From: Piezodorus guildinii
Lineage: Eukaryota > Arthropoda > Insecta > Hemiptera > Pentatomidae
DNA: 64,000 nt
NCBI GenBank assembly: GCA_023052935.1
Contig: CM041292.1
Location: forward strand, 116,742,936 to 116,806,935
Direction of reading: 5' to 3'
The position numbers and the translations under genes were made by a program. The notes beneath the pieces were generated by a model. The model ran no database searches. It worked only from the letters and a program-made list of their open reading frames with translations, and had not been told where the DNA came from. Positions within the stretch are counted from its first letter, which is position 1; every line of letters starts with the position of its first letter. This document shows, piece after piece, positions 26,796-63,375 of this stretch.

Positions 26796-26799
26796 ATAA

Positions 26800-27364
26800 T
26801 GCTACGGTCAAGACAATGACGGGTGGACCACGCCTGGAGGGGCCTAGATGAGGCTAGAGACTTCTGGACCTGGACAGTCCTCGAAGTGCCTGGAAAGGCC
26901 CACCACCCTACCTGCGCCCGGGTCTAGAAGATTCGGCGGTGGTACAAATAGCTGTCCCCTGAGCCTAGGTGGGTCAGTCTTAATCCGGCTCAACAAGTAT
27001 CAGTGATGTGTCAGTGAACAGTGACAGTGAACAGTTCGTGACAGTGTGACAGTATAGTGAAACTGTGTGTCAATATTGTGATAACCGGTCGGTGGGAAAG
27101 TAGAAGACTGTAGTTTATATATGTGTTTTATAGTTGTAAGTTCTAGAATAAGTCTAACAGATTGTATGAATTTACGTAAGTAGTTTATTTGTTAGGAATA
27201 CCTCATTTTATATGTATACTGTTTAGTAGTTAAGCTAGTGATTCCATTAATATTGTTAATATAGTGGTTAGTAATCCCTTTGTATTTGTGTTTTCTGTAT
27301 TTAATAAATATTTGTAATTTGTAAACTGGAGTAGTTCATTTCTCACACCCCGTAGCCCGTAACA
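26800..27364 (+). repeat. 5' LTR
   Basis: Begins TGCTACGG and ends CCGTAACA, imperfect inverted ends with the canonical TG...CA. No difference from the 3' LTR was seen on reading all 565 bp. It contains a cluster of (C)AGTGAACAGTGACAGTG-type short repeats (about 27006-27060), a TTTATATATG TATA-like site (about 27114), and an AATAAA polyadenylation-type signal at about 27303. Confidence 0.95.
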
Positions 27365-27367
27365 ATT

Positions 27368-27384
27368 TGGTGTCAGGTGTGGGG
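27368..27384 (+). other. Candidate primer-binding site
   Basis: TGGTGTCAGGTGTGGGG starts 3 bp after the 5' LTR. It begins with TGG, the complement of a tRNA 3' CCA. The priming tRNA was not identified. Confidence 0.6.
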
Positions 27385-27448
27385 TCATTGTAAATGGTTA
27401 TAATTTTGGTTTTCTTGTTTTTGTAATTATTGGGCTACTGTGTGGAAA

Positions 27449-30400
27449 ATGACTTCTCAGAGTGTTAGACTGAATGATTTAAAAGTTGCAGACTTAAGAC
27501 GGGAGTTAGAAGAACGAGATCTGGATACTTCCGGAACGAAATTAGTACTGCAACAACGCTTGCGCCAATTTTTTGTTGATTCAGGGGAAAATCCAGACGA
27601 GATTACGTTTGAAAATGATTTCAGTAAGTTGTCTGCAACTTTTAAAACTGAATTAGGCACTGTTAAAAATGAGTTAGGTACTGTTAAAAATGAGTTAGGT
27701 AATGTAGAAAAGAAGTTAGGTAATGAATTAAGTACTGTTAAAAATACATTGGAGGCTAAGTTAGGCAATTTAGAAACTAAGTTAATGGAAAGTGTAGATA
27801 ATAAGTTAGCTGATGTAGAATCTAGATTAGGAGAAAAAGTCGATTCTGTAGAAAATGAACTTAGGGTAAGAATAGAAGCTCTAGAAGAACGTATGAACAA
27901 CCCAACGACAATCGACACCGACCAACCCTCTGAGAGAAGCCCTCACAACACCATTCCCTCCGCCAATGCTGGGATGCCACCAACACACAACACCATCCCA
28001 TTGTTCGACGGGAAGACGCCATGGGAGGACTACATGACTCTCTTCGAGACAGCGGCTTCGATCCACGGGTGGTCAAAGGAGACGCAAGCATCAGCGTTGT
28101 GCCTAGCCTTGCGTGGAGACGCCTTAGGAGTGCTACAGGGGATGCCCATGTCGGAGCGGTGCAACTACAGTGAGCTGATGAAAAGACTGGAGATGCGTTT
28201 CGGCCATCGCCACATGGACCAACTATACCGTTCCCAGTTAAAGAACAGGGTCCAGAAGACCAACGAGACGCTGCAGGAATTTGAAGCAGATATCGCCCGG
28301 CTAGTGAGGAATGCCTACCCAACGGTCACCGACGACGTCTACGAGAGCTTGGCTATCGACAAATTCCTGGATGGACTTCGAGACCCGGAAACCCAACAGG
28401 CAGTGAAACTCGCACGCCCTAAAACTTTGGGCGATGCATTGTCGCAGGCCATGGAATTCGAGGCTGTCAGGCAGTCAGTCCGTGGACATGCACGGGTTCG
28501 AGCGGCAGAAGCGGAGCCTAACACGGCCCCCACCATCGAGGACATAGTAGCAAAGGTCTTGGAAGCCCTCAGGACCCGCAAAAAGGAGATACGCTGTTGG
28601 AGCTGCGGTCAACTTGGACACCCCAGAAGCAAGTGTCCTACCAGGAAGCCGGAAAAGCCAGCAACAGTGTTGCGGACTACGGTCGTTACCGACGGTTGGC
28701 AGGACACACAACTGGCAAAGGAACAGGACGAGGACCCGGACTTGAAACAAATAAGGGAATGGAAGCTATCAGGCCAAAGGAGACCAAGCTGGCAGGATGT
28801 TGCTCCAATGTCGAAAAATATAAAAACCTATTGGGCTCAATGGGACTCCATTCTACTGGACAAAGGTCTGCTGAAACGAGCATTGGAGGACACAGAGGGA
28901 GATCAGCGGAGACTACAGCTCATCGTACCAAAGATTAAAGTGCCCGAAGTACTGAGGGAATTACATGATGGAGCATCTGGTGGCCACCTTGGAGTTCACC
29001 GGACATTAGAAAAGGTTCGTGAACGCTTTTACTGGGCAAACCTCAAGGACGATGTGTTAGATTGGTGCCGGCGGTGTGCAACTTGTGCCGCCTCTAATGG
29101 ACCGATAAGGAAAAAGAAGGCACCTATGAAGAAATACAACGTAGGAGCACCATTCGAGAGAATAGCGGTAGACATCGCTGGCCCTTTTCCTGTGACAGAT
29201 AATGGCAACCGATACATTCTCGTGGCCATGGATTATTTTTCAAAGTGGGTGGAAGCTTACGCCCTTCCGAATCAGGAGGCCGCCACGGTTGCAGATGTTC
29301 TCGTGAAGCAGCTCGTCAGTCGGTTTGGGGTGCCCATGGAACTTCATGCTGACCAAGGAAGAAACTTTGAGTCGGCAGTCTTCACCAGGATGTGCGAGGC
29401 TCTAGGAATACGGAAGACCAGAACGACGCCTCTTCACCCTCAGTCCGATGGCATGGTAGAGCGCATGAACAGGACGATGGGTCGATATTTGGCCAAGGTA
29501 GTTTCTGGCCATCAGCGAGACTGGGACCAATATCTTCATCTGTTCCTGCTAGCCTATCGTAGTTCAGTCAATGAAACGACAGGGCAGACCCCCGCCAATG
29601 TCGTGTTCGGTAGAGAACTACGCTTGCCTTGCGATCTGAAATTCGGTTTCAAGCCTGATGAGGAGGTCGCCGGAGAAGACTACGTCACGAACCTACGGAA
29701 GCGAATGAACACTATTCATGAGAAGGTTCGCACAAACATCCAGGGAGCAAGTGACAGAATGAAGGAGCGTTATGACATCAAGGCAGAGAAAGGTGGCTTC
29801 CAACCTGGAGACTTGGTCTGGCTACACGATCCTCGAAGAAGGCAAGGCTACTCACCGAAACTTCAAAACTCCTGGGACGGACCGTATGAGGTCATCAAGA
29901 GGATCAATGATGTCATCTATAGGATCAGGAAGCAGCCCAAAGGAAAACCCAAGGTAGTCCATTTCAACCGATTGGCTCCATACAAGGGAAACCATGGCCC
30001 TACAGAGGAACAGCAAGTGAGGAACCTCACCGACAAGGACCTAACTCCCCATCCTAAGGCGCCAGACTCCCGTAGGGTAACGCAGACAGTTTACAGAGAC
30101 ATATTCTCGTTACCGGTAGACTATGCTCTAGCACACTGTGTCGCCGAACATCTGAGGAATTCCCGGGGGATTGCGACGGTCTTCAGGAAGAAGTTCGCTG
30201 GAATTGAAGAGCTGGAACGCCAGGGACCCAGAGTTGGGAAGACTCTCCATCAAGAGCATGAAGGCCGGCACCTGTTTTACTTGGTTACCAAGAGTTCATC
30301 AGAGCAGAAGCCGACATACGACACACTGCGCCGGAGTCTTGACGACCTGCGGAGAAAGCTTCTGGAACTGCGTGTCACCAAGCTCGCCATCCCGAAGTTG

Positions 30401-30616
30401 GGTTGTGGATACGATGGCCTGGAGTGGAGGATTGTCAGGAACATGGTAGAAGAGACGTTCGCCAACTCTGGAGTCATCATAATGGTATGCACGTTCAACC
30501 CCTGGAAAGACAAAACACCTACATCGGAGGAAGATCAGCATCGCTCAGCTTCTGCAATCTGTGCTCTGGGGCAGAGCACGTCTAAGGAGGGGGTAGTGCT
30601 ACGGTCAAGACAATGA
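27449..30616 (+). CDS. Gag-integrase-macro domain polyprotein
   Basis: 1055 residues from the first ATG; the frame is open 9 nt further upstream, but from a GTG. Domains in order: SAP-like DNA-binding motif (7-42, LKVADLRREL...LDTSGTK); repeat-built coiled coil (about 60-150, ELGTVKN units); Gag (about 181-336); CCHC knuckle C383-C386-H391-C396; integrase HHCC (H513, H517, C543, C546); catalytic core D575, D635, E671 (DD35E); GPY module near residue 810. The C-terminal macro domain (about 878-1025) has YRDIFSLPVDYALAHCVAEH and KLGCGYDGLEW. K948 and D989 sit where TARG1/OARD1-type ADP-ribose hydrolases have their catalytic Lys and Asp. Protease, RT and RNase H are absent between residues ~400 and ~430, where the post-RNase H linker (EDPDLKQIREW) follows almost directly on Gag. 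The stop lies inside the 3' LTR. Confidence 0.93.
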   Translation: MTSQSVRLNDLKVADLRRELEERDLDTSGTKLVLQQRLRQFFVDSGENPDEITFENDFSKLSATFKTELGTVKNELGTVKNELGNVEKKLGNELSTVKNTLEAKLGNLETKLMESVDNKLADVESRLGEKVDSVENELRVRIEALEERMNNPTTIDTDQPSERSPHNTIPSANAGMPPTHNTIPLFDGKTPWEDYMTLFETAASIHGWSKETQASALCLALRGDALGVLQGMPMSERCNYSELMKRLEMRFGHRHMDQLYRSQLKNRVQKTNETLQEFEADIARLVRNAYPTVTDDVYESLAIDKFLDGLRDPETQQAVKLARPKTLGDALSQAMEFEAVRQSVRGHARVRAAEAEPNTAPTIEDIVAKVLEALRTRKKEIRCWSCGQLGHPRSKCPTRKPEKPATVLRTTVVTDGWQDTQLAKEQDEDPDLKQIREWKLSGQRRPSWQDVAPMSKNIKTYWAQWDSILLDKGLLKRALEDTEGDQRRLQLIVPKIKVPEVLRELHDGASGGHLGVHRTLEKVRERFYWANLKDDVLDWCRRCATCAASNGPIRKKKAPMKKYNVGAPFERIAVDIAGPFPVTDNGNRYILVAMDYFSKWVEAYALPNQEAATVADVLVKQLVSRFGVPMELHADQGRNFESAVFTRMCEALGIRKTRTTPLHPQSDGMVERMNRTMGRYLAKVVSGHQRDWDQYLHLFLLAYRSSVNETTGQTPANVVFGRELRLPCDLKFGFKPDEEVAGEDYVTNLRKRMNTIHEKVRTNIQGASDRMKERYDIKAEKGGFQPGDLVWLHDPRRRQGYSPKLQNSWDGPYEVIKRINDVIYRIRKQPKGKPKVVHFNRLAPYKGNHGPTEEQQVRNLTDKDLTPHPKAPDSRRVTQTVYRDIFSLPVDYALAHCVAEHLRNSRGIATVFRKKFAGIEELERQGPRVGKTLHQEHEGRHLFYLVTKSSSEQKPTYDTLRRSLDDLRRKLLELRVTKLAIPKLGCGYDGLEWRIVRNMVEETFANSGVIIMVCTFNPWKDKTPTSEEDQHRSASAICALGQSTSKEGVVLRSRQ
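30584..30593 (+). other. Polypurine tract
   Basis: AAGGAGGGGG lies 3 bp before the 3' LTR, the expected site for plus-strand priming. It is also translated, as part of the polyprotein's last codons. Confidence 0.8.
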
Positions 30617-31161
30617 CGGGTGGACCACGCCTGGAGGGGCCTAGATGAGGCTAGAGACTTCTGGACCTGGACAGTCCTCGAAGTGCCTGGAAAGGCCCAC
30701 CACCCTACCTGCGCCCGGGTCTAGAAGATTCGGCGGTGGTACAAATAGCTGTCCCCTGAGCCTAGGTGGGTCAGTCTTAATCCGGCTCAACAAGTATCAG
30801 TGATGTGTCAGTGAACAGTGACAGTGAACAGTTCGTGACAGTGTGACAGTATAGTGAAACTGTGTGTCAATATTGTGATAACCGGTCGGTGGGAAAGTAG
30901 AAGACTGTAGTTTATATATGTGTTTTATAGTTGTAAGTTCTAGAATAAGTCTAACAGATTGTATGAATTTACGTAAGTAGTTTATTTGTTAGGAATACCT
31001 CATTTTATATGTATACTGTTTAGTAGTTAAGCTAGTGATTCCATTAATATTGTTAATATAGTGGTTAGTAATCCCTTTGTATTTGTGTTTTCTGTATTTA
31101 ATAAATATTTGTAATTTGTAAACTGGAGTAGTTCATTTCTCACACCCCGTAGCCCGTAACA
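30597..31161 (+). repeat. 3' LTR
   Basis: 565 bp, apparently identical to the 5' LTR by eye, ending CCGTAACA and followed by ATAA. The polyprotein stop codon (TGA, 30614-30616) is in its first 20 bp. Confidence 0.95.
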
Positions 31162-31165
31162 ATAA

Positions 31166-62089: not shown

Positions 62090-63375
62090 TCGGGCTGATG
62101 CGAAATTAATGCAGGTCTCCTCTATTGCAATATCTTAATTCCAATTGTGTAAACAAAGCTAATCCTAACATTGATCATTATTATACCAAAACAAACCTTA
62201 TCTAATACCCTCTCTTTCACCATGAATTTGTTTAGTAAAATCGTTTTGTTCAGTGTGTTCAAAGGTCTTGAATCGAAAATGTCAAAGTGCGATTTTCGTC
62301 AAATTTATTTTTACGAATTTAAATTAGGGCGCAGCGGTGCGCAAACGGCTCGTAATATTAATGAAGTGTGGGGTCAGGGGGCTATTAATGAGTGCACGGT
62401 GCAGCGTTGGTTCCAGAAGTTTCGCAGAGGAGATTTCGACATCGAAGACAAGGAAGGTCGGGGCCGTCATCTTGCTCTGGACAACGACCAGCTGAGGTCA
62501 AAAGTGGAAGAAGACCCAACCAAAACCACACGAGAAATGGCGGCGGAACTCGGTGTGAACCAATCCACAGTTGTACGCCACTTGGAAGCAATTGGTAAGG
62601 TAAAAAAGTTGGCCAAGTGGGTGCCACACCAATTAAACGACCACCAAAAAAATCGCCGCTTTGAAATCTGCTCCATGCTTGTGACACGCAATAAAAATGA
62701 TCCATTTCTCGATCGCATTGTGACGTGCGATGAAAAATGGATCTTATACGACAACAGAAGGCGTTCTAGCCAATGGCTGGGCAAAGATGAACAACCAAAA
62801 CCTTTCCCGAAGCCAAACCTGCACCCAAAAAAGGTTATGGTCACAGTTTGGTGGTATAATGCTGGTGTTATTCACTACAGCTTTCTCAATCGAGGTGAGA
62901 CTATAACTGCTGACAAGTACTGTCAAGAAATTGACAGCATGAATCAAAAATTGCAACGTCTTTGCCCAGCATTGATGAATCGGAAGGGGCCGATCCTGCT
63001 CCACGATAACGCCAGACCACACGTTGCACAACCAACGCTTCGACGACTGCACGAGTTGGGCTACGAAGTTCTCCAACATCCGCCTTATTCACCTGACCTC
63101 TCTCCTACAGACTTCCACTTTTTCAGGCATCTGGACAACTTTTTGAGGGAGAAAAATTTTCAAAACCAGGACGACATTGAAAATTCTTTTCGTGATTTCA
63201 TTGAGTCCAGGGATTCGGATTTTTTTTCTGGTGGAATAAGAAAGCTTGTTGAACGTTGGCAAAAGTGCATTGATTCAGATGGAAATTATTTTGATTAAAT
63301 ATATATGGTTAAAGTAAAGATAAGGCGTATTTACAATACCTACTAAAAACCTGCATTAATTTTGCATCAACCCAA
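62090..63375 (+). mobile_element. Mariner element, complete
   Basis: 1286 bp between TA dinucleotides at 62088-62089 and 63376-63377. The left end is TCGGGCTGATGCGAAATTAA, then TGCAGG. The right end reverse-complemented is TTGGGTTGATGCAAAATTAA, then TGCAGG. The ends thus match over about 26 bp with three differences. It carries one uninterrupted transposase frame and is the full-length relative of the deleted copy at 48829-49740. Confidence 0.95.
62279..63298 (+). CDS. Mariner transposase, DD34D
   Basis: Cut-and-paste transposase of 339 residues from ATG 62279, the usual mariner length. An in-frame ATG at 62222 would add 19 residues, and the frame is open further 5'. The N-terminal half has two helix-turn-helix segments (about 6-55 and 75-105). 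The linker motif WVPHQL is at 114-119. The catalytic triad is D151 (VTCDEKW), D243 (LLHDNARPH) and D278 (YSPDLSPTD), with 34 residues between the last two, as required for mariner. There are no stops or frameshifts. It is possibly functional; activity cannot be judged from sequence alone. Confidence 0.95.
   Translation: MSKCDFRQIYFYEFKLGRSGAQTARNINEVWGQGAINECTVQRWFQKFRRGDFDIEDKEGRGRHLALDNDQLRSKVEEDPTKTTREMAAELGVNQSTVVRHLEAIGKVKKLAKWVPHQLNDHQKNRRFEICSMLVTRNKNDPFLDRIVTCDEKWILYDNRRRSSQWLGKDEQPKPFPKPNLHPKKVMVTVWWYNAGVIHYSFLNRGETITADKYCQEIDSMNQKLQRLCPALMNRKGPILLHDNARPHVAQPTLRRLHELGYEVLQHPPYSPDLSPTDFHFFRHLDNFLREKNFQNQDDIENSFRDFIESRDSDFFSGGIRKLVERWQKCIDSDGNYFD

Follow-up and report, generated by a model that had tools for sequence, protein, structure and literature searches.

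Why would a retrotransposon carry an ADP-ribose-processing fold at the end of its integrase? The question is raised by a 64,000-nucleotide stretch of the genome of the pentatomid bug Piezodorus guildinii (assembly GCA_023052935.1, contig CM041292.1, positions 116,742,936 to 116,806,935 of the forward strand; hereafter the window), in which a Ty3-type long terminal repeat (LTR) element encodes a polyprotein ending in a macro domain. We put a probability of roughly 0.6 on the reading that this family encodes a predicted active TARG1-type ADP-ribosylhydrolase on its integrase, one that likely frees the integration complex or its DNA of ADP-ribose placed there by the host. The reading draws on the likeness of the domain to TARG1 in sequence, a confidently predicted fold, a kept Lys/Asp pair, a fusion shared by many copies and found in several lineages of insects, and the joint divergence of macro domain and integrase.

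The window copy has one uninterrupted frame (27440..30616; positions are on the + strand throughout) of 1,058 amino acids from a GTG start, arranged as SAP / coiled-coil-like / gag capsid-like / CCHC / integrase / macro, and all three macro motifs that a sequence-only reading of the window had pointed out fall within it. Residues are numbered here from the GTG; an ATG three codons later gives the numbering of that reading, whose K948 and D989 are our K951 and D992. The macro domain occupies 30074..30496. When the C-terminal 200 residues were searched with phmmer, human C6orf130/OARD1 entries (2l8r, 2lgr, 4j5q, 2eee and 4j5r) were matched with E-values of 1.2e-32 to 6.3e-32. An AlphaFold2 model of this piece has block-mean pLDDT (predicted local distance difference test) values of 92-98 across residues 21-160, and its six top structural matches are all human TARG1, with DarG next. 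A gapless structural alignment placed piece residues 93 and 134 at Lys84 and Asp125 of TARG1, the second of which we take to be the catalytic Asp, and sequence alignment concurs. Lys84 is the catalytic Lys of TARG1 (PMC8501950, a study in which TARG1 also rescued E. coli expressing DarT). The predicted catalytic residues, K951 (codon 30290-30292) and D992 (codon 30413-30415), are thus the pair singled out by the sequence-only reading. Human TARG1 (terminal ADP-ribose glycohydrolase, OARD1 or C6orf130) is a stand-alone host protein, whereas the macro domain of the window is the C-terminal domain of an integrase; DarG is a bacterial antitoxin macro domain with 22-24% identity to it. A chance match or mis-frame is excluded by E-values of 1e-32, the single frame and the open frame of all 150 scored copies. 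A MacroD- or PARP-type (poly(ADP-ribose) polymerase) macro domain is not favoured, as TARG1 and then DarG head the structural list, although families absent from the list are not thereby excluded.

Upstream of the macro domain lie the integrase H2C2 zinc-binding domain (28925..29098; Pfam PF17921, E 1.4e-19), the catalytic core (29150..29440; Pfam rve, E 2.6e-16), a C-terminal SH3 / GPY-type module (29807..29983; Pfam PF24626 and PF22938) and a variable linker (29984..30073). The integrase triad is D578, D638 and E674, with 35 residues separating the second Asp from the Glu, which falls just beyond the rve match. Among solved structures the integrase is nearest Ty3 (7q5b, E 2.9e-32), so that the proposed fusion to a Ty3/gypsy integrase, in the same frame, is borne out. 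Full copy L009 has aspartyl protease, reverse transcriptase (RT) and RNase H upstream of the integrase, and its RT is likewise nearest Ty3 among solved structures (4ol8, E 1.3e-94). In residues 859-1058, no chromodomain was found after the integrase; Macro alone matched (Pfam, E up to 1). The assignment to the TARG1 type, with the Lys/Asp placement and the fusion to a Ty3-type integrase, is supported.

The fusion is not private to P. guildinii: gypsy polyproteins with the same C-terminus recur in other insects. Protein searches returned 5, 12 and 63 matches, the third list including the first five; the last 10 of the 63 could not be aligned locally to the window piece, and it may be only their integrase end that matches. 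Named sources include the beetles Aromia, Molorchus, Callosobruchus, Harmonia, Diabrotica, Exocentrus and Gonioctena (Ignelater partial), the leafhopper Macrosteles, the planthopper Nilaparvata (partial) and the mildew Erysiphe. P0006, whose macro domain is 84% identical, has an RT-RNase H-integrase-macro order, as do P0007-P0009 and P0011. Two fusion polyproteins, P0007 and P0010, are filed under the powdery mildew Erysiphe pulchra; these entries are probably insect contamination of that assembly.

Conservation follows the domain boundaries. In all 14 relatives compared, the macro domain is 40-84% identical, while the adjoining linker (33-47 residues) is 14-38% identical in 10 of the 11 relatives in which it was measurable (14 examined) and 59% in P0006; the 73 residues after the linker are 55-66% identical in the relatives measured and 86% in P0006. 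The catalytic Lys is present in 41 of the 44 relatives covered over at least 120 residues (66 aligned rows), with Arg in the other 3, and the Asp in 40. Distances in the integrase C-terminus and in the macro domain correlate across 32 proteins with both regions, 24 after thinning (Pearson 0.74, Spearman 0.45, Mantel p 1e-4). In a 37-row tree, midpoint-rooted and with three outside sequences only, the split between the 34 retroelement-type rows and the other three (human TARG1, L015 and P0016) has support of 97/99. We read these sequence comparisons as suggesting one capture of the macro domain, followed by joint descent with the integrase. Directly after the macro domain, 29 of the 44 relatives (many from beetles) have a CCCH-like motif, which by pattern is absent from the branch of the window; Pfam zf-CCCH reaches or exceeds its cut-off in P0038 and P0023, with weaker matches in P0022, P0029 and P0013. 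Relatives with the motif include P0010-P0014, P0022-P0036 and others.

Within its own genome the family is young. A macro-piece query gave 563 candidates, and the 150 scored were all 99-100% identical and stop-free; these are the best-scoring by design, making 150 copies a lower bound, and a few are on small unplaced contigs. An LTR query gave 1,642 candidates, of which the 40 scored were again all 99-100% identical. Among 27 copies compared (the window and 26 loci, many picked for short frames or short LTR spacing), 16 are complete: 14 have LTR pairs of equal length with no difference, and two, L010 and L036, have pairs that differ in length. Given the identical LTRs and the large number of near-identical copies, neither a domesticated host gene nor an old relic is favoured. 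Duplications of 4 bp flank 15 of the 16 complete copies, the exception being L013, which has a mis-set LTR end. Those read (at the window copy, L009-L011, L014, L030, L035-L040, L042, L043 and L048) have the form NTAN in 14 of 15 cases (ATAT, GTAT, GTAC, TTAT, CTAT, TTAA, ATAA); L011 has GTCG. An own-genome family search with PF01661 returned two exon-size pieces (L028 and L029) among 12 candidates and did not reveal a host TARG1. With a diverged query, the P0004 macro piece, 150 of 538 candidates were scored and yielded only matches of 59% identity, showing no second family; they overlap the places found with the macro query wherever both lists show a place.

What might such a domain do? Chromodomains are thought to steer chromovirus integration, and the nicks and gaps that integration produces attract PARPs. 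In chromoviruses the chromodomain sits at the integrase C-terminus (available text of PMC3605345). Because it is located at this same place, the macro domain should accompany the integrase to the integration site; it would enter the nucleus along with the integrase and act, like TARG1, on Glu/Asp-linked or DNA-linked ADP-ribose, and its opponents would be host PARPs responding to integration nicks and gaps. In Drosophila without PARP-1, five of eight significantly changed mobile elements went up and three down, according to the available text of PMC7712786, and PARPs may contribute to keeping Gypsy-type elements in check in this fly. PARP recruitment and these data together are the grounds on which we propose an integrase-borne eraser directed against host ADP-ribosylation. 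A fuller version of the proposal is tentative, and we would give it somewhat less than even odds: the captured TARG1 would travel with the integration complex and reverse PARP modification of the integrase, the target chromatin or cDNA. Insects and their retrotransposons would thus be engaged in an arms race over ADP-ribosylation, in which a CCCH zinc finger would have been added in beetle relatives and some lineages would have become pure readers.

Several observations weigh against an active hydrolase under selection. Pfam Macro (PF01661) scores 13.4 bits on the whole open reading frame and 17.4 bits on the 200 residues, under its cut-off of 22 bits; the scores of relatives fall on either side of this cut-off (P0007 22.3, P0029 19.5), which is neither specific to TARG1 nor defining for the TARG1 branch. 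If the TARG1 matches, rather than the Pfam cut-off, are counted as the macro match, none of the three contrary outcomes named by the sequence-only reading (no macro match, a predicted model lacking the macro fold, the pair lying away from the ligand pocket) occurred: the model has a confident macro fold, with Lys and Asp superposed on the TARG1 pair. The equivalent of TARG1 S35 is Ala in the window domain. In relatives P0035, P0039 and P0048 the Lys is replaced by Arg and the Asp is missing, and P0038 is gapped at the Asp; given these losses, some lineages may only bind. In Drosophila, nine further gypsy-superfamily elements were up, none of them significantly once corrected, and the authors leave room for an indirect cause (available text of PMC7712786). 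Finally, in 16 copies taken by LTR similarity to avoid selection on protein score, the macro segment (12 of 16 usable) has 4 non-synonymous and 3 synonymous changes, a ratio of 0.41; integrase segments, at 0.12 (13 copies) and 0.11 (14 copies), lie below it, on tiny counts. The gag segment of this set has a ratio of 0.44 (5 copies). Over all 36 copies the ratios are 0.27 for macro, 0.24 and 0.14 for integrase and 0.34 for gag, and catalytic Lys and Asp are retained in 36 of 36. These within-genome counts would fit either the presence or the absence of constraint on the macro domain, and its conservation between families carries more weight.

Two other roles deserve weighing. By analogy with chromodomains, the macro domain could be a reader rather than an eraser, binding ADP-ribose on chromatin and steering the integrase to PARP-marked sites such as breaks or active promoters. 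Its place at the chromodomain position of chromoviruses would suit this role, as would the three relatives (P0035, P0039, P0048) that align over at least 120 residues without both catalytic residues. Retention of Lys in 41 and Asp in 40 of 44 relatives, and of both in every own copy, exceeds the apparent needs of binding, and we consider a pure reader unlikely for the family. The second role is a cytoplasmic counter-defence, in which the domain would act before the nucleus is entered, shielding Gag particles, element RNA or cDNA from the ADP-ribosyltransferases of the host. RNA viruses use macro domains against host ADP-ribosylation, and the viral matches listed for the predicted fold are headed by Kadipiro virus VP8 and include thrips-associated flavi-, negev- and virga-like viruses, with invertebrate iridescent viruses lower down; these look-alike domains, judged from predicted structures, fit a conflict over ADP-ribosylation in such hosts. 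The fact that Gag, integrase and macro stay in one frame in the short form of the element, and that thymidine adducts of single-stranded DNA are a TARG1 substrate, would agree with cytoplasmic action. Set against it, the macro domain of full copies is joined to the integrase and not to Gag, and to our knowledge few insect PARPs have antiviral roles; we regard this role as improbable. That the domain was captured but rides along without any selected role is very improbable: weak within-genome constraint on small counts and an altered loop in Aromia relatives (ASG for GCG) speak for it, but the drop in identity from macro to linker, the conserved catalytic residues and the joint divergence with the integrase all speak against it.

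The integrase-borne eraser that we prefer pairs a familiar type of element with an enzyme fold that is itself known but occupies a new location. In the available text of open-licence PubMed Central papers we found no description of a Ty3/Gypsy integrase-macro fusion, in agreement with the sequence-only reading, which knew of none; PMC9503650, which surveys viral NAD/ADP-ribose systems, does not contain 'retrotransposon', 'integrase', 'TARG1' or 'OARD1' in its main text. Chromoviruses and this family both have an extra chromatin-related domain at the same position of Pol (available text of PMC3605345), but the chromodomain reads histone marks whereas the macro domain is an enzyme fold. Ectocarpus Gypsy elements have a Pol with a YbiA-family NADAR domain, likewise an ADP-ribose-related enzyme domain (available text of PMC12477816). 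Fish epsilon-like endogenous retroviruses also captured macro domains, there as additional reading frames in vertebrate retroviruses rather than as an integrase fusion in a Ty3-type element (available text of PMC4977317, citing Basta 2009). A young, high-copy family with an integrase-borne TARG1 domain would make PARP restriction of insect retrotransposons directly testable, and would provide an integrase accessory domain with enzyme activity instead of a histone-reading role. There is also a warning for annotation, that insect gene models called OARD1-like can be retroelement pieces. This name is given to P0001 and P0002 (Macrosteles) and P0050 (Nilaparvata); both Macrosteles models contain the element linker EEQQVRNL, making them likely retroelement pieces and the automatic names misleading.

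The element itself is bounded by a target-site duplication, ATAA, read in the sequence at 26796..26799 and repeated at 31162-31165. Its 565-bp 5′ LTR (26800..27364; TG...CA) shows no difference from the 565-bp 3′ LTR (30597..31161). Just inside the 5′ LTR lies the likely primer-binding site TGGTGTCAGGTGTGGGGT (27368..27385), assigned by position and TGG start only. The polypurine tract AAGGAGGGGG (30584..30593) lies within the final codons of the frame, whose stop codon (30614-30616) falls inside the 3′ LTR, at its bases 18-20, with no coding room downstream; a separate downstream reading frame or env is excluded, since the frame crosses the tract into the LTR. LTRs, target-site duplication, likely primer-binding site, polypurine tract and, in full copies, protease, RT and RNase H before integrase are shared with Ty3/Gypsy elements (Metaviridae), from which the family differs by an N-terminal SAP in Gag and the C-terminal macro domain in Pol, and the window copy further by the absence of protease, RT and RNase H.

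The SAP domain (27470..27574; Pfam PF02037, E 1.2e-9) is also present in beetle relative P0014 (58% over 40 residues). It is followed by a coiled-coil-like stretch, assigned by eye only, by a Ty3-type Gag capsid-like region (28016..28474; sub-threshold Pfam matches to DUF1759, PNMA and Ty3_capsid) and by a CCHC zinc knuckle of C386, C389, H394 and C399 (28592..28639), recognised by residue spacing, with Pfam under cut-off. The gag region is 55-56% identical to those of P0010 and P0013, the latter matched by Pfam Retrotrans_gag.

Relative to L009, about 2.2 kb encoding protease, RT and RNase H are absent from the window copy; the junction, at 28652..28660, is a 9-bp overlap of two alignments. 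An identical junction occurs in 14 of the 27 copies compared, L035 and L040 being deleted differently, and in 33 of 76 loci, which form 29 distinct places after overlapping loci were merged by hand (besides the window, L006, L020, L030-L034, L036-L039, L041-L043, L048, L051-L054 and L056-L064). In 20 small fetched stretches it was present in 13 of the 15 chosen for short frames and in none of the 5 chosen for long frames. As the junction is common to many copies, this is a single deletion event now multiplied over 29 loci or more, giving a non-autonomous form that keeps Gag, integrase and macro; it encodes a Gag-integrase-macro protein and most likely moves with enzymes supplied by full copies.

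Among other copies, L009, L010 and L013 have Gag and Pol in one frame and L011 and L012 in two overlapping frames, while in four short copies (L038, L039, L041 and L042) overlapping alignments reveal a tandem duplication of about 92 bp of early gag. A scan of viral contigs yielded one distant TARG1-like gene, the L015 sequence of the tree, which is a stand-alone gene of 152 amino acids on an IMG/VR contig (L015:5007-5465), beside frames that by eye are dUTPase-like and peptidyl-tRNA-hydrolase-like. In P0016 a TARG1-like macro domain shares a single chain with an RNase HII and an AlkB-type domain. Elsewhere in the window, a 375-amino-acid frame at 62171-63298 (+) encodes a mariner-type transposase (Transposase_1, E 3.5e-29; HTH_48, E 2.4e-16).

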